DNA of 64,000 nucleotides. Source: Aggregatilineales bacterium. Lineage in GTDB: Bacteria; Chloroflexota; Anaerolineae; Aggregatilineales; Phototrophicaceae. A model generated the notes under the pieces. It searched no databases. It worked only from the letters and a program-made list of their open reading frames with translations, and was not told the DNA's origin. The stretch covers positions 248,001 through 312,000 of the forward strand of contig JAUQWZ010000011.1 of the NCBI GenBank assembly GCA_030834905.1, written 5' to 3'. The translations under genes and the position numbers were made by a program. Shown here piece by piece: positions 2,893 to 24,479 of this stretch (the stretch's first letter is position 1; each line of letters starts with the position of its first letter).

Positions 2893-2901
2893 GCGAGATT
2901 G

Positions 2902-4203
2902 ATGGCAACGATTCGACTCCCGACCCAGATGGTACATGCCCGCCAGCAGTACGCCCTCACACTGAATGAATCGGTGACGGCGGGGCGGCTGGCGCGTTAT
3001 CTCTCGCAGCAGGAAGCCTACGTGGACGCGAGCACGCTCGAAGTGGCGCGCCCGGTGCTGCCCACGCAGCGCATTCAGGACGTTGACGTTCAGCCCGGCG
3101 ACCGGCTGGTCATCTTTACCGGCGACGCCGATAACGCCGAGCTTGCCGCCCCGCTGCGTCCGGGCGATAAGCTGGTAAAGTTTGCCGTTGGCGATGTCAT
3201 GGTTGCGTCACGCGGCAAGAAAAGCCTGCTCATCGGCAAGCCCGACGGTCCCCGCGAGACGGCAGTGGACATTGACCTGCGCAACTTTATCTCGCCAAAG
3301 TCGCTGAACTTCATCTCGCGCGAATGTCTGCGCCTGGACTATGACGAACGTAACAAGACCTGGTTCGCTAACAAAGTGGGGCGCACCCGCGTGCTGCTGG
3401 ACGAGTATGAAATCGGGGCGGATAAAGTGCCGCTGGGCGACCACGTCATGCTGCGCTTCTACCGCGCCAACGACGACCCGCGCACGACTCGCCCGCTGGG
3501 CGAAATTCGCGCTATGGTCGAAACCGTGGAGTCGCGCGACGACATCCTCTATATCGAACAGGGAAGCCACTTCGTCAACATGCAGGTGGGCGTGCCGCGC
3601 GAGAGCGTCGCCCTCAATGTTTCGGAGAATGTGCTGCTGGCGCAGATCGTCACCGGGCTGGCAGCCTTCCACCGCGCCGGTATTCCCCAGAACGCAACGC
3701 TGTACCTGCTGCGGCTGCTCGCGCCGGAAACGCGCGTCGGCGAAATCACGCTTGGGCAGGACGAGTTCCTCTATACTTCGCGCAGCCAGTCATATGCCCA
3801 TAACCTGCTTGTCCTGCGCGATATTCACGACCCCGAACGCCTGTTTGAGCTGTCGGCTGGCTTGGAAGACGACGAAAAGCTGGTGGGGCGGCGCTCCGAT
3901 TCCAATGCTGAAGACCCGGAACTGGATGTCGATCTGTTTGCGGTGCTGGTCGGGCGCAGCAATAACCCCGACGCCTTCAAGAGCATTTCGCGCCGCCAGC
4001 TTCGGATTTACTACCGCGCCGCCGAAAATACCTGGTGGATACGCCCTGAGGAGCGCAGTTCGGTGCCGGTGTTCCTCAACAACACCCGCGTCACCAGCAG
4101 CACGCCTACGCAGATGACGTCAGGCGATGTGATCAGCATCGGGCAGACGGTCGATAATTACTATGCCCGGCTGGAAGTCGAAATCACGTCCAAAGCAGAG
4201 TGA
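2902..4203 (+). CDS. Multi-FHA-like cytoplasmic protein with possible ubiquitin-like N-terminus
   Basis: The start is ATG 2902, three bases after a TTG alternative and 9 bases after the upstream stop. The protein has 433 residues, no signal peptide and no membrane helix. Residues 1-75 look like a beta-grasp/ubiquitin-like fold (beta strands, 'VGRLARYL'-like helix, '..VQPGDRLVIF' end), reminiscent of EsaB/YukD of type VII systems. This is a pattern impression only. Residues about 105-195 and 350-425 resemble FHA domains: LLIGKP...FISRECLRL and LVGRSNN...SISRRQLRIYY...PVFLNNTRV. The middle section is helical and unassigned. It probably acts as a phospho-dependent scaffold with the VWA-FHA protein upstream. 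Confidence 0.65.
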   Translation: MATIRLPTQMVHARQQYALTLNESVTAGRLARYLSQQEAYVDASTLEVARPVLPTQRIQDVDVQPGDRLVIFTGDADNAELAAPLRPGDKLVKFAVGDVMVASRGKKSLLIGKPDGPRETAVDIDLRNFISPKSLNFISRECLRLDYDERNKTWFANKVGRTRVLLDEYEIGADKVPLGDHVMLRFYRANDDPRTTRPLGEIRAMVETVESRDDILYIEQGSHFVNMQVGVPRESVALNVSENVLLAQIVTGLAAFHRAGIPQNATLYLLRLLAPETRVGEITLGQDEFLYTSRSQSYAHNLLVLRDIHDPERLFELSAGLEDDEKLVGRRSDSNAEDPELDVDLFAVLVGRSNNPDAFKSISRRQLRIYYRAAENTWWIRPEERSSVPVFLNNTRVTSSTPTQMTSGDVISIGQTVDNYYARLEVEITSKAE

Positions 4204-4997: not shown

Positions 4998-7052
4998 ATG
5001 AATGTTGCCAATCTACTCCACCTTCAATCCGCTCTGGTCTGGGTCGATGACCTGATACGAGCAGCGGCAGCGCGCGCGCAGGCATCTGGTCAGGACCCGA
5101 CCGATGCGCTGCGCGGGCTGATTATCTCCGACGAAGATGTCGCCACAAACCTCGCGCGCACCGCCATGGAAGGACAATGGGCGCAGCATGGCGAGGCGTT
5201 CCAGCTTCCCGAATTCCCGATACCGGATGATCCTGAACTGCCGCTTGCCCGGCTGATTCGCCTGTTTGACCTGAGTTCGCTCGACTGCTACATCCTGATG
5301 CTCTGCCTTGCGCCAGAGCTTGACCGGCGCTACGAACGGCTGTACGGCTACTTGCAGGACGACGTTTCGCAGCGCCGCCCCACTGTCAACCTGATGATGA
5401 ACCTGCTCGGCGGCACGATCCCTGAGCGTTTTACAGTGTGGGAACGGCTGACCCCGACCATGCCGCTTCGGCTGCATCACCTGATTGAGTGCCTGCCCGA
5501 TCCCGGTCAGCACCATCCGATCTTCCTCGCGCACCATCTCAAGGTCGATCATCGCATCCTCGCCTACCTGCTGGGCGACGCCGAGACAGATCAGCGGCTA
5601 AAGCTGGCGATTCAATATCAGAAACCGGGCGAAAACCAGTTTCTGCCCGACTCCATCCGGCGCGTATTTGACGAATCGCCGATGATTTACCTTCAGGGGC
5701 GCAGGGGCATCGGTCGCGCCGGTGCTGCCGCGGCGTTGTGCGCCGAATTTGGGCTGTCGCTGCTAAGCGTCGATCTGGCGCAGTTGGCGAAGCTCGAAAT
5801 CCCGCTGTCGCTCGGCTGGAAACTGGCGCTGCGGGAAGCGCGGCTGGCAAACGCGGCGCTGCTGCTCGACTCGTGGGAAAGCTGCCTCGATGAAAACGAT
5901 CTGCCGCCTGCCGAACTGTGGTCGGACTTGCAGACCTTCGAGCGACCGCTGTTCCTGTGCAGCACCGAGTCCTGGGAACCGCAAAACGCCGACCGTATGC
6001 GCCGTATGCTGCGCATCACCTTCACGGTGCCCGGTTATGATGAACGCCGCCGCGCCTGGGAATCGGCGCTCGGCGTGCAGGGCGTGGCGGTGGATGAAAG
6101 CTCGCTGGACGAATTGGTCACCAAATTCAAACTGACGCCTGAGCAGATCGCCAACGCGGTGCATACGGCAGTCGATCTCGCGATTTCGCGCGGCGAGGAA
6201 GTCCGCGCCGCTGACCTGTACGCGGGCGCGCAGGCGCACACCGGCATGAAGCTGGGACGTCTTGCCCGCCGGATTATGCCGCGCTACACCTGGAGCGATC
6301 TCGTCCTGCCGCCGGATCGTCTGGAGCAGCTTCAGGAAATCTGCGCCCGTATTCGCTACGCCCACACCGTCAACGAGCGCTGGGGCTATATCCGCCGCGT
6401 GGCGGCGTCGCCGGGCGTGACCGTCCTGTTCGCCGGTGAAAGCGGCACCGGCAAAACGCTCGCCGCCGAAGTCATCGCCAACGATCTGGGGCTGGCGCTG
6501 TACAAGATCGATCTGTCCACCGTCGTCAGCAAGTACATTGGCGAGACGGAAAAGAACCTGGCGTTAGTGTTCAACGCCGCCGAAGCCAGCAACGCCGTCC
6601 TCTTTTTTGACGAGGCGGACGCGCTGTTTGGCAAGCGTTCGGAAGTGAAGGACGCCCATGACCGCTACGCCAATTTAGAGGTCGCCTATCTGCTTCAGCA
6701 GTTAGAAGCTTACGAAGGCGTGGCAATTTTGGCGACCAACTTACGACAAAACCTGGATGAGGCGTTCACGCGCCGCCTGAGCTTCATGGTGGACTTTCCG
6801 TTTCCAGAGAAAGAATACCGGCTGCACATCTGGGCGTCTCATTTCCCGTCAGAAGCGCCGCTTGGGGGCGATGTCAGCCTCAACGAACTGGCGGATCGCT
6901 ACCCGCTGGCGGGTGGCAACATTCGTAACGCGGCAATCGCCGCCGCTTATCTGGCGGCAGCCGACGGCGGCGTTATCACGATGGCGCACGTTCGCAACGC
7001 CATCCGGCGCGAGCATCAAAAAATGGGCAGGTTACTGGACGACACAAATTGA
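4998..7052 (+). CDS. CIS-associated AAA+ ATPase (Afp15/Pvc15-like)
   Basis: GGAGAGG precedes ATG 4998. The 684 residues comprise an N-terminal helical domain (1-200), a degenerate AAA module (about 215-410) whose Walker A is eroded (GRRGIGRAG, lacking GK[ST]), and an intact C-terminal AAA+ module with Walker A GESGTGKT (480-487), Walker B VLFFDEADALFG (about 533-544) and an arginine-rich sensor region. CIS and phage-like particles often encode such an ATPase. Afp15/Pvc15 is required for assembly or stability of the particle, probably by remodelling sheath or other subunits. It starts the main plus-strand CIS operon, 16 bases before the cap gene. Confidence 0.88.
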   Translation: MNVANLLHLQSALVWVDDLIRAAAARAQASGQDPTDALRGLIISDEDVATNLARTAMEGQWAQHGEAFQLPEFPIPDDPELPLARLIRLFDLSSLDCYILMLCLAPELDRRYERLYGYLQDDVSQRRPTVNLMMNLLGGTIPERFTVWERLTPTMPLRLHHLIECLPDPGQHHPIFLAHHLKVDHRILAYLLGDAETDQRLKLAIQYQKPGENQFLPDSIRRVFDESPMIYLQGRRGIGRAGAAAALCAEFGLSLLSVDLAQLAKLEIPLSLGWKLALREARLANAALLLDSWESCLDENDLPPAELWSDLQTFERPLFLCSTESWEPQNADRMRRMLRITFTVPGYDERRRAWESALGVQGVAVDESSLDELVTKFKLTPEQIANAVHTAVDLAISRGEEVRAADLYAGAQAHTGMKLGRLARRIMPRYTWSDLVLPPDRLEQLQEICARIRYAHTVNERWGYIRRVAASPGVTVLFAGESGTGKTLAAEVIANDLGLALYKIDLSTVVSKYIGETEKNLALVFNAAEASNAVLFFDEADALFGKRSEVKDAHDRYANLEVAYLLQQLEAYEGVAILATNLRQNLDEAFTRRLSFMVDFPFPEKEYRLHIWASHFPSEAPLGGDVSLNELADRYPLAGGNIRNAAIAAAYLAAADGGVITMAHVRNAIRREHQKMGRLLDDTN

Positions 7053-7758: not shown

Positions 7759-7779
7759 CTCAGCCAGCGGCTGAGTTTT
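7759..7779 (+). terminator. Hairpin with T-tract between cap and sheath genes
   Basis: CTCAGCC-agc-GGCTGAG followed by TTTT forms a 7-bp stem with a 3-base loop. It could terminate or attenuate the ATPase-cap message, so that the abundant sheath is made from its own transcript or a processed end. Confidence 0.6.
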
Positions 7780-7843
7780 GCAGCCAGGGCATCCAACCCA
7801 GGGTGTCCGCCGTACTTGTCCGAACTTAATAAGGAGAGTTTCA

Positions 7844-9442
7844 ATGTCGCCGAGCTATCTTTCACCGGGTGTCTACGTTGAAGAAGTAGACAAAGGCACT
7901 AAGCCAATTGAAGCCGTCGGCACCGCCGTCGCCGCTTTCGTTGGCTACACCGAGCGTGCCGCCGATCTGCGCGATGACGAGGTCATTTCGCTGCTCGGAA
8001 AGCCGACGCTCGTCACCAACTGGAGCCAGTATGTCCAGAAGTACGGCAGTTTCGTCGAGGGCGCGTTCCTGCCCGATTCGGTGTACGGGTATTTCGCCAA
8101 CGGTGGCGGCAACTGCTATATCGTCAGCATCAAGACGCTCGGCGCTTCGGATGATCCCGAACTGTCGTCGTCGGCGGCGGTTGCCGTTCCCAGCCTGGAT
8201 GGCAAGACGCAGAACCTGCTGGAATTCACCGCCCGACAGGGTGGCACGTCTGGCAATGGTCTGCGGGTAGACGTTCGTCATGCGCCCGCAGCCAAGGACA
8301 AAGCAGCCGAAGCGTCCGGCAAGGAACTGGCACCGTCCGAATACACCGTCGTCGTCAGCCTTAACGGGCAGGCGATGGAAACCTTCGATGGTCTGACCAG
8401 CGGCAAAGGCGAGAAGGGTGTTGAAACTGCCGTCAAGACCCGTTCCAAGCTGATCGATGTCAAGGTCACCGGCAAGGGTGATATGATCCCGGCGGAGGGC
8501 ACTTACCAGCTCGAAGGCGGCGAGATCAAGACCAAAGCCGTCACCCTCAAGGACTATCAGGGCAGCGTCTCGGAGCGCAGCGGTATCGGCGGGCTTGAGC
8601 CGCTGGACGACGTCACCATGATCTGCGTGCCGGATCTGATGGCAAGCTACTCGGCTGGCGAGATCGACATGAAGGGCGTGCAGTCGGTTCAGCAGGCGGT
8701 CATTGACTACTGCGAGAATGTTCGCTACTGCTTCGCCGTCCTCGACTGCCCTCCCGGCTTGATGCCGCAGGAAATGAAAGAATGGCGCAATACCGTCAAC
8801 TATGACAGCAGCCGCGCCGCCGTTTACTATCCCTGGATCGAAGTCGCCGACATGACCGGCAGCAATGGGCGCACCCGCCTGATTCCGCCGTCGGGTCACA
8901 TGGCAGGTGTTTACGGTCGCGTCGATGGCACCCGTGGCGTTCACAAAGCGCCGGGCAATGAAGTCATTCGCGGCGCGCTGGGGCTTGAAGTCCAGGTCAC
9001 TAAGGGCGAGCACGACATCCTCAACCCGATTGGCGTCAACGTTATCCGTTCGTTCCCCGGTCGCGGCATCCGTATCTGGGGCGCGCGCACGCTGTCGAGC
9101 GATCCGTCATGGCGCTATATCAACGTTCGCCGTCTGTTCAACATGGTCGAGGAAAGCATCGAGCGCGGCACTCAGTGGGTGGTGTTCGAGCCGAACGACC
9201 AGAACCTGTGGGCGCGTGTCCGCCGTGACGTTTCGGCGTTCCTCAGCCTGGTATGGCGCAGCGGCGCGCTCTTTGGCACGACGCCAGAAGCCGCCTTCTA
9301 CGTCAAATGCGACGCCGAGAACAACCCGCCAGAAGTGCGCGACGTCGGTCAGTTGATCGTGGAAGTGGGACTTTCGCCCGTGAAACCGGCAGAATTCGTG
9401 ATCTTCCGTATCAGCCAGTGGGCTGGTCCCAGCTCTGAGTAA
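7844..9442 (+). CDS. Contractile tail sheath protein
   Basis: AAGGAG sits 8 bases before ATG 7844. The longer frame back to 7778 lacks a ribosome site. The 532 residues start with the classic sheath opening SPGVYVEEVDKGTKPIEAVGTAVAAFVGYTERA and end with the conserved handshake region (FEPNDQNLWARVRRDVSAFLSLVWRSGAL...VEVGLSPVKPAEFVIFRISQ), the part exchanged between sheath subunits. Residues about 120-260 form a variable outer domain. Sheath hexamers surround the inner tube and contract to drive it through a membrane. Only one sheath gene is present, unlike Afp/PVC particles, which encode two or three. Confidence 0.95.
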   Translation: MSPSYLSPGVYVEEVDKGTKPIEAVGTAVAAFVGYTERAADLRDDEVISLLGKPTLVTNWSQYVQKYGSFVEGAFLPDSVYGYFANGGGNCYIVSIKTLGASDDPELSSSAAVAVPSLDGKTQNLLEFTARQGGTSGNGLRVDVRHAPAAKDKAAEASGKELAPSEYTVVVSLNGQAMETFDGLTSGKGEKGVETAVKTRSKLIDVKVTGKGDMIPAEGTYQLEGGEIKTKAVTLKDYQGSVSERSGIGGLEPLDDVTMICVPDLMASYSAGEIDMKGVQSVQQAVIDYCENVRYCFAVLDCPPGLMPQEMKEWRNTVNYDSSRAAVYYPWIEVADMTGSNGRTRLIPPSGHMAGVYGRVDGTRGVHKAPGNEVIRGALGLEVQVTKGEHDILNPIGVNVIRSFPGRGIRIWGARTLSSDPSWRYINVRRLFNMVEESIERGTQWVVFEPNDQNLWARVRRDVSAFLSLVWRSGALFGTTPEAAFYVKCDAENNPPEVRDVGQLIVEVGLSPVKPAEFVIFRISQWAGPSSE

Positions 9443-9526: not shown

Positions 9527-9973
9527 ATGCCATCACGTGATACCGATCCTCTTATCAGTTTTAGTTTTTCGCTGGACGTTCAGGGTGTCGTGTCCGGCTT
9601 CTTCACCGAAATCAGTGGGCTTGGCTCGGAAACTGAAATTATCGAGCACAAAGCCGTTGATCCGACCGGTAAGGACTTCATTCAGAAGATCCCCGGTCGC
9701 ACCAAGTTCACCGATGTGACGCTGAAGCGCGGCATCACCAAGCTGAAGGACATCTGGCTGTGGCGCAAGATGGTGGAAGATGGCGACATCGTGGGCGCGC
9801 GCAAGAACGCATCCATCACCATGTACGACCAGTCGCTGACGCCGGTCGCCCGCTGGAATTTCCGCAACGCCTGGCCCACCAAGGTCAGCGGTCCGCAGTT
9901 CCAGTCGGACTCCAACGCCTTTGGCGTTGAAGAATTGTCGATCACTTACGAATTCATGGAACGCGATCAATAA
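9527..9973 (+). CDS. Inner tube protein (T4 gp19-like)
   Basis: AGGGAGGG precedes ATG 9527. The 148 residues match the phage tail tube/gp19 family: a short N-terminal FSFSLDVQGVVSGFFTEISGLGSETEIIEHK segment, then the GRTKFTDVTLKRGITK and W..W strand pair, and a closing IEELSITYEFMER-like edge strand (here VEELSITYEFMERD). Hexamers stack into the tube that carries the payload. It follows the sheath directly, the usual CIS order, and should be made in equal numbers with it. Confidence 0.93.
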   Translation: MPSRDTDPLISFSFSLDVQGVVSGFFTEISGLGSETEIIEHKAVDPTGKDFIQKIPGRTKFTDVTLKRGITKLKDIWLWRKMVEDGDIVGARKNASITMYDQSLTPVARWNFRNAWPTKVSGPQFQSDSNAFGVEELSITYEFMERDQ

Positions 9974-10000: not shown

Positions 10001-10363
10001 ATGCTGCAAACGGAATTTGAGTTTGTTCTGCCAAAAGGATTTGTCGATGGACAGGGAAACCTGCATCGAGACGGCAGAATGCGCCTGGCAACTGCGATGG
10101 ACGAGATTGCGCCCCTGCGCGACCCGCGCGTGCGTGCCAATGAGGCGTATCTGGTGGTGATCCTGCTCGCGCAGGTCATCACCCGCCTCGGCACGCTGCC
10201 GAGGGTCACGCCCGAAACGGTCGAGCAGTTTTATGCCGCCGATCTCGCCTATTTGCAGGATTTCTACCGCCAGATCAACGATGTCGAAGGGCAGCAGGTG
10301 CTGGTGGTGTGCCCCAACTGCGGGCACGAATTTGAGGAGGAAATCCCCCTGCTGGGGGGATAG
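10001..10363 (+). CDS. Tail-assembly chaperone-like protein (Mu/FluMu gp41- or P2 gpE-like position)
   Basis: The 120 residues begin MLQTEFEFVLPKGFVDGQGNLHRDGRMRLATAMDEI, as in tail-assembly proteins of Mu-like phages and CIS loci, and end with a CPNCGHEFEEE half zinc-ribbon. It lies between the tube and a second tube-like gene. In tailed phages this slot encodes a short chaperone and a frameshifted long form that guide tube or tape-measure assembly. The end of the gene reads CTG GGG GGA TAG, placing a G-GGG-GGA heptamer right before the stop (see the frameshift entry). Confidence 0.78.
   Translation: MLQTEFEFVLPKGFVDGQGNLHRDGRMRLATAMDEIAPLRDPRVRANEAYLVVILLAQVITRLGTLPRVTPETVEQFYAADLAYLQDFYRQINDVEGQQVLVVCPNCGHEFEEEIPLLGG
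10334..10360 (+). promoter_or_regulatory. Candidate programmed -1 ribosomal frameshift site
   Basis: The heptamer G GGG GGA (10354-10360) fits the X XXY YYZ slippery rule and is read in frame just before TAG (10361-10363). A Shine-Dalgarno-like GAGGAGG (10334-10340) lies 13 bases upstream, a placement known to stimulate -1 slippage in dnaX. CCCCC runs on both sides could pair with the G run. The SD-like sequence has no start codon at a usable distance, which argues that it serves frameshifting. Slippage would join the chaperone to the downstream DUF6760-like frame. Confidence 0.65.
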
Positions 10364-10527
10364 TCCGCTACCCCCTTGAACGCCTGCATGAGGAGGTAGC
10401 ATTCATCGCCGCAGGACTGGGTTGGAGTTACGACGAGATCATGTCGTTTACTCACCAGGAGCGCGCGCGCTGGGTCAGGCAGGTCAACACGATGAATGTA
10501 CGGCAGAACCGCCGTCGGCAAGGGTAA
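10360..10527 (+). CDS. DUF6760/P2 E'-like extension, translated by -1 frameshift (no start codon of its own)
   Basis: This 55-codon frame reads IVRYPLERLHEEVAFIAAG followed by LGWSYDEIMSFTHQERARWV and then a basic tail. The G-W-S-x-x-E-I ... E-x-x-x-W pattern resembles DUF6760 of CIS loci and the P2 GpE' extension family. The only ATG before its last quarter would delete the conserved half, and no GTG or TTG precedes it. The frame is closed upstream at 10333-10335. It is therefore most simply made as a C-terminal extension of the 10001-10363 protein, giving a product of about 175 residues, as for phage P2 E/E+E' and lambda G/GT. An ATA or CTG start cannot be excluded. Confidence 0.7.
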   Translation: MVRYPLERLHEEVAFIAAGLGWSYDEIMSFTHQERARWVRQVNTMNVRQNRRRQG

Positions 10528-10534
10528 GTAAATC

Positions 10535-10711
10535 ATGCCGCAAACGAGGTCATCCGCCGAAAATACAGGCACTGAACGCCAGCCCAACGAAGCCGACGAC
10601 TACCGCAGGCTGGTGCAGCAGGTTGCAGATAAAGTGTGGCTCTTGTGGCGCGAAGAACTGCGCCGCGACCGCGAGCGCCGTGGAAGTGAGGTGTCAAAAT
10701 GCCGCCGGTAG
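10535..10711 (+). CDS. Small CIS protein with C-terminal RERRG helix
   Basis: ATG 10535 opens a 58-residue protein: a polar first third (MPQTRSSAENTGTERQPNE), then one amphipathic charged helix ADDYRRLVQQVADKVWLLWR and a continuation EELRRDRERRG. Its stop overlaps the start of the next tube-like gene (ATG 10699) by 13 bases, which supports real coding and coupled translation. I do not know a named family. The C-terminal helix resembles the end of the 1072-residue protein at 11151-14369, suggesting that both dock to the same partner. Confidence 0.65.
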   Translation: MPQTRSSAENTGTERQPNEADDYRRLVQQVADKVWLLWREELRRDRERRGSEVSKCRR

Positions 10712-11145
10712 GAAAGCCAATCGAAATTCACGCCGGGTTTCGCTTTGTGGTACAGGTGGACAACATCAATACCGCCGCGTTCACGGAATGCACGCTGCCG
10801 CGTCTTCAGGTCGAAACGGAAGATATTAAGGAAGGCGGCTTGAATGCTTACATTCACCGCCTGCCCGTCCGCGTGAACGCGGGGACGGTCACGCTAAAAC
10901 ACGGCGTCACTAAAAGTGATGAGCTTCTCAACTGGTACCTGCAGGTGCTGCAGGGGCAGATCAAGAACGCGACCCGCAACGTGACCCTGATTATCTTTGA
11001 CTCCACCCGCAAAGTGCAGATCGCGCAGTGGGCGTTCAACCAGGCATATCCGATCCGCTGGGGAGGTCCTACACTCCGCACCGGAGACAGCGCGGTGGCG
11101 ATTGAAGAGCTTGAACTCGCCCATCGTGGCTTTACGGTGGTGTAA
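10699..11145 (+). CDS. Second tube-like protein (tube initiator, Afp5/Pvc5-like)
   Basis: The 148 residues share the gp19-type fold pattern with the main tube protein: FRFVVQVDNINTAAFTEC, GRxx-like ...VTLKHGVTKSDELLNWYLQVLQG, and a final VAIEELELAHRGFTVV edge strand. CIS loci carry a second, diverged tube protein at this position that forms the first ring on the spike and baseplate hub. The ATG lies inside the previous small gene, so the two are translationally coupled. Confidence 0.85.
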   Translation: MPPVGKPIEIHAGFRFVVQVDNINTAAFTECTLPRLQVETEDIKEGGLNAYIHRLPVRVNAGTVTLKHGVTKSDELLNWYLQVLQGQIKNATRNVTLIIFDSTRKVQIAQWAFNQAYPIRWGGPTLRTGDSAVAIEELELAHRGFTVV

Positions 11146-11150
11146 ATATC

Positions 11151-14100
11151 ATGGCGAAGCATCCTTTTCGTTCCATCGGACAGCGAGTGCGCGATTTCGC
11201 GCGCGCGCACATCCGCAGTTATGTGCCTTCGGGGGAACTTGTCTCCCGAAGCGAACTGCCGCCTTCATGGCAGACGGACAGCGACGAGCCGCTGGTCTGG
11301 CGTGACGACGCCCCCGCGACTCCGGCGATGGGCGCGCCTGCCCCTGCCGAGTCCGACTGGGAAGCGACCGATGATACGCCAGCATCGCGCGACTTTGCCC
11401 CCACGCCGCCGGTCGTCACCCATAACATGCTCGAACGGCTGATGGCAGCCCACGAAGAACGTATGGCAAGCGAGGAGACAGCCCCGCCATCCATCAGCCA
11501 GCCTATCAGCCAGCCCACCGCCCAGCCAGCGCCGGTACAGCGCCAGGTTGAGGCACCCGCCAGCGCAGCCGATGCCAGCGAGACCGAAGCCCTACCGCGA
11601 ATCGTCACCAAACGTCGGCGCGGCGCGGTGGTCGATGTCCCGTCCCAGACGACGCCGTCAACCGGTGAAGAAGACACGCCACCCGACTTTTTTTTTCTGA
11701 ATGACGCCGCGCCAGACTCACCAGCGGTGCAGCGCGCGCCAGCTAACCCACCCGCACCGCAGACACCATCGGAACCATCGAAGCCCAGCAGCCCCGCCGC
11801 GCCTTTCTGGCGACGGTTGTTCTCGCGCGGCGACGAACCAGAGCCGCAGGTTGAGGACAGCAGCAGCGACTCAACTCCACTTTCCTCTGAAATCACCGGC
11901 GACCAGCCGTTTAGCCCGGCTGAATCGTCGTCGTTAGCATCCAGCGGCACGCCCGCCGTCCAGCGCGCTCCCGAAGACGCGCCAACCATTCTGACTCCTG
12001 ATGAGACGCCGTATTCACCCGCCGCGCCGCCAGCGCCTTCCGCGCCTGATTCGCTGCCAGCCAGCCCGACGCCGACCACGCGCCGCCGTTCATCCGGTCG
12101 GACGGTACAGCGGAGCGCCGCGCCGGAAGCCAGCCCTCCGCCGTCAGACCCGCTATCCAGCAGCACGACGCAGCCAACTGCGCCAGCGCCGCCAGTACAG
12201 CGCCAGACCGACGTGACGACGCCAGCAGCCAGCCGACAGCCGACCAGCGCTTCAACGCCAGCAGCGCCGCTCGGCGGCGAGTATCCTTCCATGCCTTCCA
12301 GTGAAGGATTCGAGAGTCAGGACATCTCACCGTCAGCCGCTTTCGAGCCATCGGAGGGCGCGCCACCCAGGTCACCTGTGATTCAGCGCCGCGCCGACAC
12401 GTCTGTTCCATCTGTACCTTCTGTACCTACTGCACCTTCCGCGCCTTCTGCGCCCACGCGCCGTCCACGCGCCGGACGCGAGAATCCGCCAGCGCAGCGC
12501 CAGACGGATGCCGCGCCAGCATCGTCGCCCGTTCAGCCGCCCGCGCCAGAAACAGTCGTCCCCGCGCACGACGCCCCGGCTTCGCCTCCGTCCAGCGTCC
12601 CTGCGCCCACGCCGAGCCAATCGGGTGAAAGCCGGGTGCAGCGCCGCGCCGAGCCGCCAGCCGAACAATCAGACGCGCCAGTGAATCCGGCACCGCCTGT
12701 TTCGGCTGCGCCGGGCGCACCGCGCGAGAACCCGCCCACGCCAGCGATCACCGGTCAGCCGACCAGCGCCTCAACGCCAGCGGTACAGCGCCAAAGCGCC
12801 GGGAATGACGATTTCCCGATAGTGCCGCTGCGCGAAACGCCCGTCACCGCCGTCCAGCGCGAGATTGACCCTGAGGCGGTCAGCGACCAGCCTGATTCGC
12901 ACGTCGAACAGCCAACCCCGCCCGCGCAAGCGTCGCAAGTGCCACCTGCGCCCGCGCAGCCTTCGAGTCCGGCGTCCACCCAGCGCGGCGCTCCGGCGGT
13001 ACAGCGTCAGTCGAATCCGGCAGGTTCCACGCCGCCGGATCAATCCTTCTCGCCGAGCCAACCGCCAGCGCCGACCAGCGCCGACCAGCCCGCGCAGGAC
13101 AGTCATGTGTTCAGCCCGGCAGCGCCCGACGCGCCCGACCTGACGACACCGTCTGTGATCCAGCGCAAGTCGGGCAGCAAACCACCTGCCCGGCGGATTC
13201 AGCGCCGCGCGAATACGCCACCGGCAGTAGAACCACCGGCAGAACCGGATGCCAGCACGCCGGAAACAGACACGTCAGCGCCGATTCAGCCAACCCTGAA
13301 CGCGCCGCCGCCTTACGATAGACCGGTTGAGTCCGGTATGGCAGATGTCCCTACCCTGCTCACGCCCGCGCCGCAGACGCCGGGCGTCCAGCGCCGCACC
13401 AGCCAAACCGAGCCATTTGGCGGCGCTTTCGAGCGCGAGCCGGACAGCTATCGACCGGACGCGCCAACCATCCTGACGCCGTCCGTGCCGCCAGCGTCTT
13501 CGCCTGTCCAGCGCCAGTCCAGCGGTGAGCCAGCGCCGGAATTTCAGTCACAGCATATCGAACGCGAGCCGCGCCATCCCGCCGCGCCGCCATCGCCCTG
13601 GTCAGCCTTCATCGAGCCGCCAACGACAGCCGCCGAAACGCCCGACGATGCAAATATGGCGCGACCAACGGTCACTGAAGTTCCGCCGAGCCAGGCGCAG
13701 CCCAGCCTTCAGCGCGCCGCGCAGCCGCCGGAATCGCCTTCGTTCCGTCCGTCGGAACCCGAACAGCCGCCCCTCTCGGAACAGCCGGTCGATCTGTTCA
13801 CCGCGATGATGGACGCTGGCATGGTAACGTCGCGGCAGCCACAGCAGTCTGCGCCGCCAGTCACCCGGCGCAGCGCTCCCGACGCCATCCGCCGGTCATC
13901 GCAGCCTTCATCACAGCCCTCACCGCAGCAATCATCGCCGCCTTCGGGCGACAGCGCGCTCCCGGCAAGTACCGGGATGCAGCCGCCCGCGCCAGAGGGC
14001 GATTCAACCGATGCCGACCTGTTATCGCTGATCGACCTGCCGCCGACGACGCCGGTCATCCGCGAGTCACCGTCCAGCCCGGTGGTATCCCGCGCCCGCC

Positions 14101-14369
14101 GTCCCGCCGCCGAGCAGCACGACCACAGCCAGCAGGCAGACACGCCAGCCGAGCCGCCTCACATCGAAACCTTCACCGACGATTGGGGCAGCATCATGCG
14201 CGCGGATACGACTGATACGATTGAAGATGCCGAACCGACCACGCCGGTTGCTGAAGGCGAAGAGACGCCTCAGGAGGATGTCAGCGTGGACAAGCTCGCC
14301 CGTGACGTTTTAGACGTTCTGCGCCAGCGCCTGCGGGTTGAGCAGGAACGTCGCGGCGGAAGACCGTAG
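11151..14369 (+). CDS. 1072-residue Pro/Ser/Ala-rich disordered protein with about 16 QR motifs
   Basis: A short ordered N-terminus (MAKHPFRSIGQRVRDFARAHI) leads into about 950 residues of Pro/Ser/Ala/Thr-rich low complexity. Through it run about 16 [VILA]QR motifs, mostly VQRQ, VQRR or VQRA, spaced 30-100 residues apart. The segment PTILTP or PTLLTP occurs three times. The final 30 residues are a charged helix (KLARDVLDVLRQRLRVEQER, then RGG). It occupies the slot between tube initiator and LysM adaptor. QR motifs of this kind are common around eCIS-core (DUF4157) domains and occur in the eCIS protein at 20489-21265. Possible roles are cargo, tape measure or luminal linker. The sequence cannot decide, and the many Thr-Pro sites could be kinase targets. 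Confidence 0.75.
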   Translation: MAKHPFRSIGQRVRDFARAHIRSYVPSGELVSRSELPPSWQTDSDEPLVWRDDAPATPAMGAPAPAESDWEATDDTPASRDFAPTPPVVTHNMLERLMAAHEERMASEETAPPSISQPISQPTAQPAPVQRQVEAPASAADASETEALPRIVTKRRRGAVVDVPSQTTPSTGEEDTPPDFFFLNDAAPDSPAVQRAPANPPAPQTPSEPSKPSSPAAPFWRRLFSRGDEPEPQVEDSSSDSTPLSSEITGDQPFSPAESSSLASSGTPAVQRAPEDAPTILTPDETPYSPAAPPAPSAPDSLPASPTPTTRRRSSGRTVQRSAAPEASPPPSDPLSSSTTQPTAPAPPVQRQTDVTTPAASRQPTSASTPAAPLGGEYPSMPSSEGFESQDISPSAAFEPSEGAPPRSPVIQRRADTSVPSVPSVPTAPSAPSAPTRRPRAGRENPPAQRQTDAAPASSPVQPPAPETVVPAHDAPASPPSSVPAPTPSQSGESRVQRRAEPPAEQSDAPVNPAPPVSAAPGAPRENPPTPAITGQPTSASTPAVQRQSAGNDDFPIVPLRETPVTAVQREIDPEAVSDQPDSHVEQPTPPAQASQVPPAPAQPSSPASTQRGAPAVQRQSNPAGSTPPDQSFSPSQPPAPTSADQPAQDSHVFSPAAPDAPDLTTPSVIQRKSGSKPPARRIQRRANTPPAVEPPAEPDASTPETDTSAPIQPTLNAPPPYDRPVESGMADVPTLLTPAPQTPGVQRRTSQTEPFGGAFEREPDSYRPDAPTILTPSVPPASSPVQRQSSGEPAPEFQSQHIEREPRHPAAPPSPWSAFIEPPTTAAETPDDANMARPTVTEVPPSQAQPSLQRAAQPPESPSFRPSEPEQPPLSEQPVDLFTAMMDAGMVTSRQPQQSAPPVTRRSAPDAIRRSSQPSSQPSPQQSSPPSGDSALPASTGMQPPAPEGDSTDADLLSLIDLPPTTPVIRESPSSPVVSRARRPAAEQHDHSQQADTPAEPPHIETFTDDWGSIMRADTTDTIEDAEPTTPVAEGEETPQEDVSVDKLARDVLDVLRQRLRVEQERRGGRP

Positions 14370-14379
14370 GAGGAATAGG

Positions 14380-15039
14380 ATGACACAGAACCTGACGCGC
14401 GGCGGCTTGCAGCCAGCCAAGATGATCAATCTTGCCAGCAACGACGAAGTGTTGTGCATGTTCAATCCGTTTGAATACAGCATCGTCAAGCAGAACACCT
14501 GGGAACGCGACGCTCAATCCGGGCAGGATGCGCCCAGCCTGACTTTCAAGCGCGGCGGTCCCATGCGGCTGACGCTGACGCTGTACTTTGACACACTGGC
14601 GGATGGCGCGGATGTGCGCCAGCACACCAACAAGCTGTGGCAGATGATGATGGTGGACAAGCCGAGCGAACATGCCAAGTCGGGCAAAAGCTCGCCGCCG
14701 GAAGTCGCCTTTTCATGGGGGCGGCTGTATTTCAAAGCCATCGTCACCAACATGACCCAGAAATTTACCCTGTTTACGCCCGAAGGCACGCCAGTGCGCG
14801 CCAACGTGAACGTGACGCTGGAGCAGTCGTTCCCGGCGCACGAATTTCCAGAACAGGAAGCGGGTGCAATCAGCACGCCAGCGGCACAGGCGATTACCGC
14901 CACCCAAAGCGACCGGATTGACAATCTGGCGGCGCAAACGGGGAATGCCAACAACATGCGGGCGCTGGCGGAGCAGAACAATATTGATAATCCGCTGAAT
15001 ATTCCCGCCGGACAGCAGTTGACGCCGCCGAGACAATAA
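14380..15039 (+). CDS. LysM-containing tube-baseplate adaptor (Afp7/Pvc7-like)
   Basis: TAGGAGGAAT precedes ATG 14380, which I prefer over an upstream in-frame start at 14338. The 219 residues have a core beta domain (CMFNPFEYSIVKQNTWE, LTLTLYFDT, AFSWGRLYFKAIVTNMTQKF, LEQSF) typical of gp53/Afp7-type proteins. A C-terminal LysM-like segment follows (DRIDNLAAQTGNANNMRALA ... IDNPLNIPAGQQL). In particles of this kind the protein binds the tube initiator to the spike hub. In this context the LysM serves as a protein-protein module. Confidence 0.88.
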   Translation: MTQNLTRGGLQPAKMINLASNDEVLCMFNPFEYSIVKQNTWERDAQSGQDAPSLTFKRGGPMRLTLTLYFDTLADGADVRQHTNKLWQMMMVDKPSEHAKSGKSSPPEVAFSWGRLYFKAIVTNMTQKFTLFTPEGTPVRANVNVTLEQSFPAHEFPEQEAGAISTPAAQAITATQSDRIDNLAAQTGNANNMRALAEQNNIDNPLNIPAGQQLTPPRQ

Positions 15040-15075: not shown

Positions 15076-16812
15076 ATGCCATCAGAATCAGGCGTTCAAA
15101 GCGTCGTTCGTCCCATCGTCAAGGTAGACGGTGTCTATCTGACTACCGGTATCATACAGCAGTTGGTCGAATTGACGGTCGATACCAGCTTCGACGTGCC
15201 CGATATGTTCGTGATGCGCTTTCAGGATGAAGAGTTCGAGCTGATAGACGGCACGAACTTCGACCTGGGCAAAAAAGTCGAGGTTGGGTTTGTTGACAAC
15301 CTGGACCAGGAGGTGATCATCATGGAGGGCGAGATCACAGGGCTGGAGCCGCAGTACGATGAGGACCTCACATACCTGACGGTGCGCGGCTACGACAAGC
15401 GCCATCGCCTGACATTGGGCACCAAGATTCGCGTGTTTCTCAAACAGACAGACAGCGATATGGTGCGCAAGATTGCGGGCGAGGCTGGGATACCGGTTGA
15501 TATTGAAGCAACCAGCGATCGGCACGATTATGTCTGCCAGCATGACCAGACAGATTATGAGTTCATTCAGGAGCGCGCCCGGCTGAATGGCTATGAAGTT
15601 GGCTTCAAGGGTGACAAACTGACCTTCAAGAAGCCCGTCACCAACCAATCCAGCATCACGCTGAAGCGCGGTAATGAGCTGCGCACCTTCACGCCCCGGC
15701 TTTCGGCGGCAAATCAGGTCCAGAGCGTCGTGGTGAAGGGCTGGGATCCAGTGACAAAGAAAGAAGTTGTCGGGGAGGCGAGCAGTTCAGCCTCCAATCC
15801 CACAATCGGTTTTGGAAAAAACGGCGGTCAAGCCGCGCGGACAGCGTTCGGCGTAAGCGGCGCCAAGTATATCGAGGTGCGCTACAACGTCACTCAGGGG
15901 CAGGCGCTTGCCCTGGCAAAGTCGCTGCTGAACGACATCAATGCCGGTTTTGTCGAAGCCGAAGGAATGGCGTTTGGCACCCCAAGTCTGAAAGCAGGCT
16001 CCAAAGTCAAACTGGAACAACTGGGCACGCGCTTCAGCGGCACCTACATGGTCACCTCTGCCACCCACACCTTCACCAAAGATGGTTACAACACCTGGTT
16101 TCGTATTGAGGGCAGCCAGCCAAAACTGATGGCTGATATTGTCCAGGGACAGCCCGATAACCGCGTTTTCAGCCAGTGGCAGGGCGTCGTTCCGGCAGTG
16201 GTCACCAACATCTATGATGAACAGAAAACAACCCCTTCGGGACGAGTGAAGGTAAAGTTCCCCTGGCTTGATGACAGCCTTGAGAGCAACTGGGCGCGGG
16301 TCGCGGGACCCGGCGCGGGCGCTAAGACAGGTATCTGGTGGATGCCGGAAGTGAATGACGAGGTGCTGGTGGCTTTCGAGCAGGGCGATTTCAACCGCCC
16401 GGTGATCGTTGGCGGTCTGTGGAATGGCAAGGACGAGACGCCGGATACATGGGCGAACGCGGTAAAAAACGGCAAGGTCGTCCGGCGTATCTTCAAATCG
16501 CGGCTGGGACACACCATCCAGTTTGTCGATGACAGCGGCGACGAATACATCGAGATTGTCGACTCGAAGCAGGGAACGACTATCAAGCTGGACGCCCAGA
16601 AAAAGGAACTTACGGTCACGTGCGAGGGCAATATCACCATTAAGGCAAAAGGCAATACCAAAGTGGAAACGACTGGCAATACCGAGGTCAAATCCACCGG
16701 CAACCTGACGATGTCGTCAGATACCAATGTCAGCATCAAGGGCGGCGCCAACGTCAACGTCGAAGCCACCGCGCAGTTGGTGCTTAAGGGCGCGATAGTC
16801 AATATTAACTAA
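15076..16812 (+). CDS. VgrG-like central spike (gp27-gp5 fusion, Afp8/Pvc8-like)
   Basis: The 578 residues hold a gp27-like hub domain (1 to about 345, with DMFVMRFQDEEFEL and DKRHRLTLGTKIRVF), then a gp5-type OB fold (about 375-455: VVPAVVTNIYDEQKTTPSGR, RVKFPWLDD, WWMPEVNDEVLVAFEQGDF, PVIVGGLWNG). It ends in a beta-helix needle with NITIKAKGNTKVETTGNTEV-like repeats (about 510-578). Trimers form the puncturing device and receive the PAAR tip encoded at 4291-4683. There is no C-terminal toxin extension. Confidence 0.95.
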   Translation: MPSESGVQSVVRPIVKVDGVYLTTGIIQQLVELTVDTSFDVPDMFVMRFQDEEFELIDGTNFDLGKKVEVGFVDNLDQEVIIMEGEITGLEPQYDEDLTYLTVRGYDKRHRLTLGTKIRVFLKQTDSDMVRKIAGEAGIPVDIEATSDRHDYVCQHDQTDYEFIQERARLNGYEVGFKGDKLTFKKPVTNQSSITLKRGNELRTFTPRLSAANQVQSVVVKGWDPVTKKEVVGEASSSASNPTIGFGKNGGQAARTAFGVSGAKYIEVRYNVTQGQALALAKSLLNDINAGFVEAEGMAFGTPSLKAGSKVKLEQLGTRFSGTYMVTSATHTFTKDGYNTWFRIEGSQPKLMADIVQGQPDNRVFSQWQGVVPAVVTNIYDEQKTTPSGRVKVKFPWLDDSLESNWARVAGPGAGAKTGIWWMPEVNDEVLVAFEQGDFNRPVIVGGLWNGKDETPDTWANAVKNGKVVRRIFKSRLGHTIQFVDDSGDEYIEIVDSKQGTTIKLDAQKKELTVTCEGNITIKAKGNTKVETTGNTEVKSTGNLTMSSDTNVSIKGGANVNVEATAQLVLKGAIVNIN

Positions 16813-16822
16813 AGGCAGGCAG

Positions 16823-17218
16823 ATGAACCATAACAGCATTGTTGGACGTGGATGGGCATTCCCGCCCCATTTGGACGACCGGGATCGCGTGGCGCTGGCT
16901 CAGGACGACGCCGACATCCGGCAGGCAATTTATATCATCCTGATGACCGCGCCCGGCGAGCGAGTGATGCATCCTGACTTTGGCTGCCTGATTCACGAAC
17001 TCATCTTCAGCCCGGTGAACGACGAAACGGCGGCAACCGCCGAACGTTATGTACAGGAAGCGCTGGGACGATGGGAACCGCGCATCCGCCTCGAGCGCGT
17101 GACTGCCACGCCGAGCAATAACCAGTATGGACAACTGGACATTGAGATCGAATATGAGATTAAGAGTAAACACGACAAGCGCAGTCTCGTCGTGCCGTTT
17201 TATATGATCCCGGCATAG
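16823..17218 (+). CDS. Baseplate wedge protein, gp25-like (Afp9/Pvc9-like)
   Basis: The 131 residues follow the gp25/GPW family pattern: GRGWAFPPHLDD, DDADIRQAIYIILMTAPGERVMHPDFGCLIHELIF and a C-terminal VxxxxxxQLDIEIEYEIK strand. The family's EPR-like motif appears as PGERVMHPDFG. It starts 10 bases after the spike gene and ends 13 bases before the gp6-like gene, so the baseplate genes are one transcription unit. The protein nucleates sheath polymerisation at the baseplate. Confidence 0.93.
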   Translation: MNHNSIVGRGWAFPPHLDDRDRVALAQDDADIRQAIYIILMTAPGERVMHPDFGCLIHELIFSPVNDETAATAERYVQEALGRWEPRIRLERVTATPSNNQYGQLDIEIEYEIKSKHDKRSLVVPFYMIPA

Positions 17219-17231
17219 AGAGGATTGCGGC

Positions 17232-19196
17232 ATGGGACTTGAAACTCCACGCCTGGATGACCGCACGTTTCAGGACATTGTGACTGAAGCGCGGCGGAGA
17301 ATTGCGCTGTATACCCCTGAGTGGACCGATCATAACCTGAGCGATCCGGGAATTACGCTGCTTGAGCTGTTCGCCTGGATGACGGACATCATCCTTTATC
17401 GGCTCAACCGCGTGCCCGATAAGAATTACGTCAAGTTCATGGAACTGATCGGGATGCGCCTGCAAGAGGCGGAACCCGCCCGCGCGCCAATCACCTTCTG
17501 GCTGTCCGCGCCGCAGGAAACCAGCGTGACTATTCCTGGCGGCACCGAAGCGTCCACCATTCGCGTCGAGGACGAAACGGCGATTGTCTTCAGCACCGAC
17601 GCGCCGTTCGAGATCATGGTTCCGAAACTACAGCACACGCTGACCAGCTCGCAGCAAAGCGGCGGTCGCGCATTCCAGGTACACCCGATCAAGCGCGTGC
17701 TGGGCGGCTTTGAAGGCTTCGACGTGTTTGCGTCCAGACCGCCGCAGCCCGGCGACGCCATGTATCTCGGCTTTGAGGAAGACCTGAGCCATCACATTCT
17801 CGGCATTGAGCTTCAGGTGGATACGGCGGAAGGCGCGGGTATCGACCCGACCGACCCGCCTTACCTGTTTGAAGTCCTCAGCGTCGATCAGGAATGGCAG
17901 CGCGCCGAAGTGGACATCGACGGCACGCTCGGCTTGAACGTCAGCGGGCTGATCCGCATCTTCCTGCCCAAAATGGAACGCGGCAGCCGCAACAACCAGA
18001 CCGCCTACTGGGTGCGCCTGCGCCTTGACCCCGGCAGCCGCCGCAGCTATGGCGTCAGCCCCAACATTCGCCGGGTGACGACGACAAGCTGGGGCGGCAC
18101 CACCGACTCAACCAACGTCCAGCGCGTGCGCAACGAAATCCTGGGACGCTCTGACGGTACGCCGGGGCAGCGCTTTTATCTCACCCACACGCCCATTGTG
18201 CCGCGCGAAGGCGGCGAATATCTCTACGTCCGCATCGACAACGACCGCGAGGAACGCTGGACTGAAGTCAGCGATTTTTCGACCTCGCAGCCCGACGACC
18301 GCCACTATTCGCTCGACAGCGGCACCGGCGAAATTCGCATGGGTCCCGCGCTGCCGCAGCGCGATGGCAGCATCCACAGCTATGGCGCGGTTCCGCCGAA
18401 AGAATCGTTCATCGTCATGCGCAGCTACCGTTACGGTGGCGGACAGATCGGCAACGTGGCAACTGGCACGCTCAACCAGCTTCGCTCGTCCATTCCCTAC
18501 GTCGCGCGGGTGAGCAACCGCCAGCCCGCGACCGGCGGCAAGGACGCCGAGAGCCTGGAAAACAGCAAAACGCGGGTTCCCGGCTACCTGCGCTCTCTGA
18601 ACCGCGCCGTAACCGCCAGCGACTTCGAGTATCTGGCGAGGGAAGCCACGCCGGGAATGCTGGCGCGCGTCCACTGCCTGCAGCCGCCGCAAACCACCAA
18701 GGGCGAAATTCAGGTGCTGGTCATCCCACACATCCCAAATTTGATCGGCTTCATCGCCCCCGAAAGCCTGAACGTCTCAAGCGACCTGCGCAGCACCGTA
18801 TTCGCCTACCTTGACGAACGCCGCCTGCTGGCGACGAAGCTCGAGGTGCTGCCGCCCGCCTATCTGTGGGTGGATACGGAAGTTCGCTTCCGCGCCAGCC
18901 CATACTACTCGACCGAGGATGTCCGCAAATCCATCGAGGACAGGCTCTACGCCTTCCTGAACCCGATCACCGGCGGACAGGACGGGACAGGCTGGGCATT
19001 CGGGCGCGATTTGTTCGTGGCGGATGTGATGGCGATGCTGCTTGCCATCCCCGGCGTTGAGTTCATCCGCGTCGTGAAGATGTTCCCGGTTGGCTACGAC
19101 AAGGGGCAGTTCATTCGCGGCGACGAGATGCAGCACATTCAGGTGCCGCCCAACGGGATGATCGTGTCCTATCATCACGAGGTGCGCGCCGAATGA
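17232..19196 (+). CDS. Baseplate wedge protein, J/gp6-like (Afp11/Pvc11-like)
   Basis: The 654 residues open with the family signature: ARRRIALYTPEWTDHNLSDP followed by GITLLELFAWMTDIILYRLN. They continue with a beta-rich middle and the baseplate-J core (VTASDFEYLAREATPG, then IQVLVIPHI and a C-terminal DLFVADVMAMLLAIPGVEFI). Such proteins form the ring of wedges that triggers contraction. The stop overlaps the start of the FHA-tail gene by four bases (ATGA), indicating coupled translation. Confidence 0.92.
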   Translation: MGLETPRLDDRTFQDIVTEARRRIALYTPEWTDHNLSDPGITLLELFAWMTDIILYRLNRVPDKNYVKFMELIGMRLQEAEPARAPITFWLSAPQETSVTIPGGTEASTIRVEDETAIVFSTDAPFEIMVPKLQHTLTSSQQSGGRAFQVHPIKRVLGGFEGFDVFASRPPQPGDAMYLGFEEDLSHHILGIELQVDTAEGAGIDPTDPPYLFEVLSVDQEWQRAEVDIDGTLGLNVSGLIRIFLPKMERGSRNNQTAYWVRLRLDPGSRRSYGVSPNIRRVTTTSWGGTTDSTNVQRVRNEILGRSDGTPGQRFYLTHTPIVPREGGEYLYVRIDNDREERWTEVSDFSTSQPDDRHYSLDSGTGEIRMGPALPQRDGSIHSYGAVPPKESFIVMRSYRYGGGQIGNVATGTLNQLRSSIPYVARVSNRQPATGGKDAESLENSKTRVPGYLRSLNRAVTASDFEYLAREATPGMLARVHCLQPPQTTKGEIQVLVIPHIPNLIGFIAPESLNVSSDLRSTVFAYLDERRLLATKLEVLPPAYLWVDTEVRFRASPYYSTEDVRKSIEDRLYAFLNPITGGQDGTGWAFGRDLFVADVMAMLLAIPGVEFIRVVKMFPVGYDKGQFIRGDEMQHIQVPPNGMIVSYHHEVRAE

Positions 19197-20395
19197 CCGA
19201 GTTCAACGCCCTCTTTCGAGTCAGCGGACCGAATCTAGACCGCGACGAAATCACCGTCACGTCGAAAGGCTTGCAGGTCGGGCGTTCGGGCGATAACGAT
19301 CTCACGCTTCAGCACAGCGAGATCAGCCGCCAGCACCTGCGGATTTACCCGCATGAAAACACCTATGCGGTCGAGGACCTCAAGAGCAGCAACGGCGTCT
19401 GGGTCAACGACGTGCGCATCCGCACGCAGACACCTCACCCGCTGAAGCCCGGCGATGTCGTGCGGGCGGGTCCGTACCTGTTCACGCTCGATCAGCTTAT
19501 CGAGGTTGGCGAGGCTGCCGCAGCGCCCGCTGTCGCTGAGCCAGAAGCACCGCCGCCCGCCGCCGAGCCGCCTGTCAAACCGCCCGCGCCCGTTGAACAC
19601 GTGACCGCGCCGCCGCCAGAGGCGAAGCCGCCGGAAAAGCCCGCCAAACGCGAGCCTGCTCCTAAAGAGGACACCACCGGCGAAGTGGAATCGGCAGCGC
19701 CTGCCAAGCCAGCCAAAAAGCCGCCGGAAAAGCCCGCCAAACGCGAGCCAGCGGCTAAAGAGCCAGCCCGCCCGGTTGATCCCATTGAACAGGTCGAGCG
19801 TATTGATGTCGGGGCATTTATTCCGCGCGGCGCTGGCGATGCACTGGCGCGGCTGGATACGGCTCCGCCCGACGGCACGCTGCCGCCGCTGGAAACGAAC
19901 GGACACGTCACCTACCCAATCGGCGTGCCGACGGACGCCAGCAACTGGCTGAAGTATCTGCCAGCGATTTACTCGGACGACGATTTTATGGGGCGCTACC
20001 TGCTCATTTTCGAGTCGATCCTGAGTCCGATCACCTGGATGGTGGATAACTTCGACATGTATCTGTCACCTGAAGTCGCGCCAACCGAATGGCTGCGCTG
20101 GATGGCAAGCTGGTTTGACGTGCTGATCGTGCCGGAACTGCCAATTGACCGGCAGCGGGCGCTGGTCGAGCAGCTTGGCTGGCTGTTTTTCCGGCGGGGA
20201 ACGCGCGCCGGGCTGGAACGACTGCTGACGCTGTATTACGGTGTCAAGCCGGAGATCATCGAAGATGAGGATATGCACTTCACCGTCAGGCTGGCGCTGA
20301 GTGACAGCAGCGTCGATCTGGAGCGTGACATCGTGGATCGGCTGATCATGGCGCACAAGCCCGCCCATGCGTCCTACACGCTCGAACTGACATAA
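19193..20395 (+). CDS. FHA domain fused to P2 gpI-like tail/baseplate protein (Afp12-like slot)
   Basis: The 400 residues show three parts. Residues 1-100 are a clear FHA domain (VGRSGDNDLTLQHSEISRQH ... LKSSNGVWVNDVRI, all core residues present). Residues about 105-235 are a Pro/Ala/Lys/Glu-rich linker with two copies of PPEKPAKREP. Residues about 240-400 are a tail-protein-I-type domain (LKYLPAIYSDDDFMGRYLLI and the following FESILSPITWMVDNF, with EWLRWMASWFD and RRGTRAGLERLLTLYYGV). The gpI family joins baseplate to receptor parts. An FHA domain on this structural protein gives the particle a phospho-Thr reader, and the kinase at 21429 carries its own FHA domain. Confidence 0.9.
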   Translation: MTEFNALFRVSGPNLDRDEITVTSKGLQVGRSGDNDLTLQHSEISRQHLRIYPHENTYAVEDLKSSNGVWVNDVRIRTQTPHPLKPGDVVRAGPYLFTLDQLIEVGEAAAAPAVAEPEAPPPAAEPPVKPPAPVEHVTAPPPEAKPPEKPAKREPAPKEDTTGEVESAAPAKPAKKPPEKPAKREPAAKEPARPVDPIEQVERIDVGAFIPRGAGDALARLDTAPPDGTLPPLETNGHVTYPIGVPTDASNWLKYLPAIYSDDDFMGRYLLIFESILSPITWMVDNFDMYLSPEVAPTEWLRWMASWFDVLIVPELPIDRQRALVEQLGWLFFRRGTRAGLERLLTLYYGVKPEIIEDEDMHFTVRLALSDSSVDLERDIVDRLIMAHKPAHASYTLELT

Positions 20396-24400: not shown

Positions 24401-24479
24401 AATCACCGGCTGGATGGCGGAAGGCGTGGGGGATCGCTACTTCGTCGAAGACCCGAACGCGCCGCCGGAATCTGAATAG
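21429..24479 (+). CDS. Transmembrane Ser/Thr protein kinase with FHA, adhesion-like, calcium-repeat and SH3-like domains
   Basis: CCAGGAG precedes ATG 21429. The 1016 residues contain a PknB-type kinase: [10 protein letters not shown] (21-30), catalytic Lys43, HRDIKPDN from 139, DFG at 164-166 and a YMSPEQ segment. An FHA domain follows (about 340-415, GRDAERDV and [18 protein letters not shown]), then a Pro/Tyr/Ser-rich linker and two Ig-like domains (about 550-750). A membrane helix spans about 765-788. Next come DxDGDGLxD calcium-type repeats (about 817-895) and an SH3-like tail (about 930-1005). The FHA domain is probably bound by autophosphorylated Thr. Its likely clients are the other FHA proteins and the Thr-rich CIS proteins of this locus. 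All catalytic residues look intact. Confidence 0.93.

Follow-up and report, generated by a model that had tools for sequence, protein, structure and literature searches.

The window, a stretch of 64,000 nucleotides from a 5.29-Mb Chloroflexota genome, encodes a contractile injection system (CIS). The genes for the sheath, tube, CIS tube adaptor, gp25, baseplate J, AAA ATPase, and eCIS_core protein lie in a single cluster, which places the system with the extracellular-type CIS (eCIS; Table 1). Between the second tube-like gene and the CIS_tube gene, positions 11151–14369 encode a proline-rich protein of 1072 aa, which had no match in Pfam (E ≤ 1) or PHROG (E ≤ 0.01). This protein might contain a tape-measure-like part, and no tape measure protein was identified for the system in the window. 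FHA domains were found in several proteins of the cluster (positions 721–2892, 2899–4203, 19193–20395, and 21429–24479), with a fused Tail_P2_I-like region in one case and a fused Ser/Thr protein kinase in another, so phosphorylation control of the injection system is possible.

Table 1. Genes and sequence features of the injection-system cluster, in window coordinates.
Feature	Position	Strand	Family or basis
AAA ATPase	4998–7052		
Contractile sheath	7778–9442	+	PF04984, PF17482
Inner tube protein, 5′ of the chaperone	9527–9973	+	PF06841, TIGR02241
CIS tail assembly chaperone, 120 aa, CPxC zinc-ribbon-like near the C terminus	10001–10363	+	phrog_508
SD-like GAGGAGG, 13 nt 5′ of the slippery site; of doubtful role, with no conservation across the family	10334–10340	+	
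−1 open frame; predicted post-slip extension IVRYPLER...RRRQG, 55 aa	10336–10527	+	DUF6760
Slippery heptamer G GGG GGA	10354–10360	+	in phase X XXY YYZ; conserved family-wide
Zero-frame chaperone stop TAG, immediately 3′ of the heptamer	10361–10363	+	
Predicted hairpin, 5′ arm GCTACC-C-CCTT, beginning 6 nt past the heptamer	10367–10377	+	window fold; helix across homologues
Predicted hairpin, 3′ arm GAGG-A-GGTAGC	10390–10400	+	window fold; homologues
Second tube-like protein, 3′ of the chaperone	10699–11145	+	PF06841, TIGR02241
CIS_tube	14338–15039		
Spike	15076–16812		
gp25	16823–17218		
Baseplate J	17232–19196		
eCIS_core protein	20489–21265		

The gene directly downstream of the inner tube gene matched the phage family phrog_508, "tail assembly chaperone" (E 8.8e-8), as did all five further homologues that were scanned. 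Its final codons are CTG GGG GGA TAG, and the slippery heptamer that the first-pass annotation had placed immediately 5′ of this stop was seen there in phase. The −1 frame is bounded upstream by a stop at 10333–10335 and opens just eight codons before the junction. Read across the junction, it continues as GG-IVRYPLERLHEEVAF..., which is the domain DUF6760 (PF20546; E 6.7e-12, 45.7 bits against a curated cut-off of 27). The description of this 55-codon frame as one without ATG, GTG, or TTG before its conserved half was confirmed; it offers only an ATA at 10360, and its first in-frame ATG lies at 10441. A start codon of these three kinds overlapping or closely following the chaperone stop, as a separate coupled gene would have, was absent here. 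A 58-aa small ORF without a family match (10535–10711, MPQTRSSAENTG...) separates DUF6760 from the second tube gene.

To compare the junction across CIS loci, 84,980 species genomes were scanned with a chaperone alignment, so that the loci were not chosen by DUF6760. The alignment had 16 rows, one of which (P0023) carries DUF6760, and both search patterns lay within the chaperone only. Of 578 stretches confirmed, the best 80 were kept, giving a non-random sample, and a search of 251 phylum genomes for DUF6760 contributed another 22 loci. The set of 103 loci was reduced to 96 distinct ones by dropping L088, in which no DUF6760 was found downstream of the chaperone homologue, and the duplicates L021, L034, L049, L052, L054, and L101 (L034 is the same Chloroflexi-labelled stretch as L004). 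According to the labels as deposited, the scan loci came from Chloroflexi, Paenibacillus, Cohnella, Lachnospiraceae, cyanobacteria, Streptomyces, Acidobacteria, Myxococcales, Nitrospirota, Zixibacteria, Aminicenantes, several Proteobacteria, Methanosarcina, and ANME-2. Among plasmid records, the Deinococcus hits H66 and H68–H70 were chaperone homologues to which the fused query aligned with its chaperone part only.

DUF6760 was encoded in the −1 frame of the chaperone in 95 of the 96 distinct loci, bacterial and archaeal. The exception, L077, has it in +1, and its run is one G shorter than that of L060, the other Methanosarcina locus. All 22 loci of the phylum set combined DUF6760 in −1 with a G-run at the chaperone end, and in a separate set of 12 named plasmid loci outside the 96, slip site and −1 frame occurred together in 11, the exception being Haloferax larsenii. 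An in-phase slippery heptamer within the last 12 codons of the chaperone was likewise present in 95 of 96 loci, a count that includes L077 (CCCGGGG, frame +1) and L103 (where the counted site differs from the terminal GGGGGCA). Elsewhere in these genes, 12-codon windows held an in-phase heptamer in only 23 of 729 cases, and in the other two phases of the terminal region the counts were 23/96 and 9/96. Counted by codon, XXXYYYZ and GGGGAR sites occupied 29 and 5 of 10376 positions in the remainder of the gene, compared with 27 and 25 of 96 at codon −3. The heptamer ended exactly at the stop in 26 loci and one codon earlier in 49, placing 75 of 95 within one codon.

The bases of the heptamer varied with lineage: GGGGGAA (35 loci), GGGGGGG (24), GGGGGGA (17), GGGGGAG (3), TTTTTTG (4), TTTTTTA (4), AAATTTT (4), GGGAAAA (2), TTTGGGA (1), CCCGGGG (1), and none (1). 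GGGGGGA, GGGGGGG, or GGGGGAA occurred in Chloroflexota and many others, GGGAAAA at two Zixibacteria loci, and TTTTTTG or TTTTTTA in Paenibacillus and Cohnella. Loci labelled Lachnospiraceae had TTTTTTA (3) or AAATTTT (1), and AAATTTT also occurred in Anaerotruncus, Petralouisia, and one more Clostridia locus. When the first-pass proposal to check homologous CIS loci for the −1 frame and the G-GGG-GGA heptamer was followed, the −1 frame and a slippery heptamer were each conserved in 95/96, whereas the precise letters, one of several lineage-specific forms, were shared by only 17/96. The maintenance of phase and position while the bases differ suggests selection for slippage and is hard to explain otherwise.

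A conserved predicted hairpin downstream of the slippery site had been missed in the first-pass annotation. In the YP group, the loci in which the extension begins ..YP.., 62 have a GGG-type site, and at 59 of these the hairpin started 6 nt beyond the heptamer. In the 76 YP loci, the codons GGC TAC CCC and GAG GAG GTA GCC, which pair as GGCUACC-C-CCU with AGG-A-GGUAGCC, were favoured far above local codon usage: GGC in 44/46 against 43%, CCC in 52/76 against 27%, and the stem-pairing Val codon was GTA in 61/66 against 13%. The native YP sequences folded better than codon shuffles with the protein kept (mean z −2.76) and ranked at or below 0.05 in 78% of loci. The window hairpin is not exceptional by itself (codon-shuffle rank 0.133; dinucleotide z −1.50, with 15/200 shuffles equally good).

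The helix was further analysed in an alignment of 64 loci. From the 77 YP/other loci, 13 whose sites were U/A-type or unclear had been omitted by slip class before any pairs were counted. In this alignment 86.4% of cells were paired, compared with 34–55% when the helix was slid by 1–3 columns, and RNAalifold predicted the helix core unprompted, with a covariation term of just −0.29. The covariation score was 0.151 versus 0.117 in shuffles that retain relatedness, none of 500 of which scored as high, while two of five measures, both-side pair changes (201/500) and further pair types (350/500), fell within the shuffles. Much of the YP stem is invariant, and its covariation was accordingly modest. 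A single hairpin common to all loci was considered and rejected. The TYA group (19 loci, ..TYA.. in the extension) was counted separately from the YP group because its 12-bp stem is a different one, shifted in register; the TYA stem was 93.1% paired and had a codon-shuffle z of −2.40, and its covariation was weak against shuffles (cells paired 38/500, score 11/500). The YP-type stem was absent from the Firmicutes U- and A-type loci. A covariance model (R1) gave six hits at E ≤ 0.001 in 151 phylum genomes, all from its own input rows, a scan that shows specificity only. Out of sample, R1 hit the correct position in 11 of 12 plasmid loci, eight of them at E ≤ 7e-6 and the other three at 0.005–0.09, along with two weak minus-strand hits, but it scores the coding sequence as well. 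Against Rfam, nothing exceeded the cut-off, the one hit reaching 12.6 bits versus 40.

The GAGGAGG that had been noted 13 nt before the slippery site was present in the window, but it did not hold up as a conserved stimulator. In the relative L024, EEEIPLL is likewise encoded, but with GAAGAGG. SD matches of at least 5 nt upstream of the slip site were found in 37/95 loci, about 8 being expected by count. In protein-keeping codon shuffles of 94 loci, an unusually strong SD was seen in 3%, with a mean z of −0.72 (control −0.07; the window itself z −1.8, rank 0.08). Because these shuffles show little, the SD was not taken as conserved.

We then considered whether DUF6760 might be made as a separate small protein by translational coupling, with ribosomes restarting at an overlapping or nonstandard codon (GTGA or ATGA; ATA in the window). 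An ATG, GTG, or TTG within seven codons before the conserved Tyr was present in 28/96 loci (16 of the 19 TYA loci and 12 others), often as a GTG or ATG overlapping the chaperone TGA, and reinitiation or a second route is possible there. In the Haloferax larsenii plasmid (L106), the annotated DUF6760 gene begins at an ATG of its own that overlaps the stop before it (ATGA), and there is no slippery site; the 207-aa protein P0187, with its long acidic linker, looks like an in-frame fusion related to L106. DUF6760 is also annotated as a gene of its own in several plasmids. However, 68/96 loci lacked such a near-junction start, 51/96 had no ATG, GTG, or TTG anywhere upstream of the conserved Tyr in that frame, and 8/96 had not even a CTG or ATH. 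Coupling also leaves unexplained why phase-correct heptamers of varied base composition occur in 95/96 loci and why the predicted hairpin keeps a fixed 6-nt spacing. The sole heptamer-free locus of the 96, L053 (a Dormibacteraeota MAG of the TYA group), has a GTG overlapping the chaperone stop and has lost both the G-run slip site and the hairpin. On its sequence, L053 appears to be a natural loss of the frameshift signal, and the gain of a start together with the loss of site and stem is, in this single case, the association expected under a frameshift. Homologues with a start of their own, which the first-pass annotation had named as evidence against recoding, form only a minority; L106 and L053 look like separately started genes. 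Coupling as the general explanation is improbable.

Transcriptional slippage, in which the G-run gains or loses a G and yields in-frame messages, would suit the fact that most sites are G-runs of at least five. TTTTTTA/G, AAATTTT, and GGGAAAA fill the same role elsewhere, however, the latter two not being homopolymers, and a hairpin at ribosomal spacing would not be expected; we regard this explanation as very improbable. That one ORF was split by gene decay or by a sequencing error in the homopolymer is scarcely credible and already contradicted by conservation: the in-frame fused singletons P0023, P0130, P0132, P0171, and P0201 and the apparent one-base difference in the run of L077 would fit it, but the identical split recurs in 95/96 distinct loci and in complete plasmid records, fused forms number only 6 among the best-listed 120 of 6246 hits, and P0132 and P0171 seem to switch frame within the chaperone. 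These fusions were also weighed as proof of the joined product and left out of the main evidence because the five singletons are compatible with indels; P0187 is the only fusion that looks designed.

Taken together, the sequence comparisons indicate that a programmed −1 frameshift derived from phage tails very probably produces the chaperone and a minor chaperone–DUF6760 fusion. The conservation of heptamer and −1 frame supports the earlier proposal that the injection system retains the phage frameshift trick, and since the same layout is found in distant bacteria and archaea, this recoding trick probably works in injection machines too. We infer slippage, product ratio, and function from the parallel with lambda and P2 (PMC5009743). 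The predicted hairpin 6 nt downstream would cause a fraction of ribosomes to slip back one base at G GGG GGA; these would pass the TAG and append DUF6760, giving the minor fusion besides the chaperone. On the model of lambda G/GT and P2 E/E+E′, many chaperone copies may coat a tape-measure-like partner, and the few fused copies may recruit tube subunits through DUF6760 and set up tube assembly. G-runs, TTTTTTR, AAATTTT, and GGGAAAA would be interchangeable solutions that preserve the product ratio. In its wider form, which we consider likely with less assurance than the frameshift itself, a stem-loop-stimulated −1 cassette would be ancestral and near-universal in CIS with this chaperone and would come from a P2-like tail. 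Its slip chemistry would have switched repeatedly with the frame kept, and an ordinary start or a true fusion would have replaced it in a few lineages (haloarchaea and one Dormibacterota); DUF6760 would be the CIS counterpart of P2 E′, and the recoding ratio would set injection-tube assembly.

No description of frameshifting in CIS was found in the titles and abstract openings of the matches listed, which came from mainly open-access literature. The word "frameshift" was absent from PMC8213781, PMC8894136, and PMC10020575 in a term search within the text, and in PMC13222765 frameshift wording is confined to a reference title. DUF6760, a domain of unknown function, gains a predicted role, and the results suggest that two CIS assembly factors are one gene read in two ways. 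Gene tables start DUF6760 within its conserved frame (L104, Rhodococcus pWB1) or omit it (L110, Brasilonema pBOCT2, in a table incomplete by its own description); therefore, ORF-by-ORF expression constructs and gene lists may miss the fusion. Tube assembly and length control in CIS would become testable through a few synonymous changes at this predicted hairpin-stimulated frameshift site, which is widely conserved in both bacteria and archaea.

Phage lambda likewise makes a chaperone and a −1 extended chaperone, G and GT. The lambda slippery site is GGGAAAG, and the similar GGGAAAA was found at two CIS loci. According to PMC5009743, lambda makes G and GT at about 30:1, and the tail tube subunit is bound by the T domain. 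The predicted structure of the homologous fused protein P0023 came nearest to YqbN (3klu) and the HK97-type tail assembly chaperone (2ob9), with no PDB match at E ≤ 0.001 from Foldseek alone. GGGGGAA, the commonest CIS site, is also an observed motif of phage chaperones, where re-pairing of the second tRNA is explained by G:U (the PRFect paper, PMC10885494, mainly on phage genomes).

The comparison with P2 E/E+E′ that had been drawn in the first-pass annotation proved sharper than claimed, because the extension domain itself resembles P2 E′. P2 shares the gene order sheath, tube, chaperone, and −1 extension, a −1 frameshift is annotated in its record at the corresponding place after sheath and tube, and its slippery site near the chaperone end, TTTTTTG, also occurs at Paenibacillus and Cohnella CIS loci. 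In contrast to P2, the CIS site lies mostly within one codon of the stop, a predicted hairpin is conserved at G-type CIS loci, the genes are not part of a phage genome, and the CIS chaperone sequence has no match to P2 gpE (0.2% in profile comparison). PF06528 (GpE) itself was found in none of 121 phylum genomes, and tblastn of the extension against 50,697 phage records gave nothing at E ≤ 0.01; a further extension query against phages at E ≤ 10 gave a single hit, at E 10. Below the Pfam cut-off, PF06528 was matched by 5 of 8 extensions scanned (E 0.0075–0.09), and profile comparison with hhalign gave 78.8% probability over 30 columns with FHWP..W aligned. By sequence, the extension domain of the CIS chaperone may be akin to the frameshift-made E′ domain of P2.
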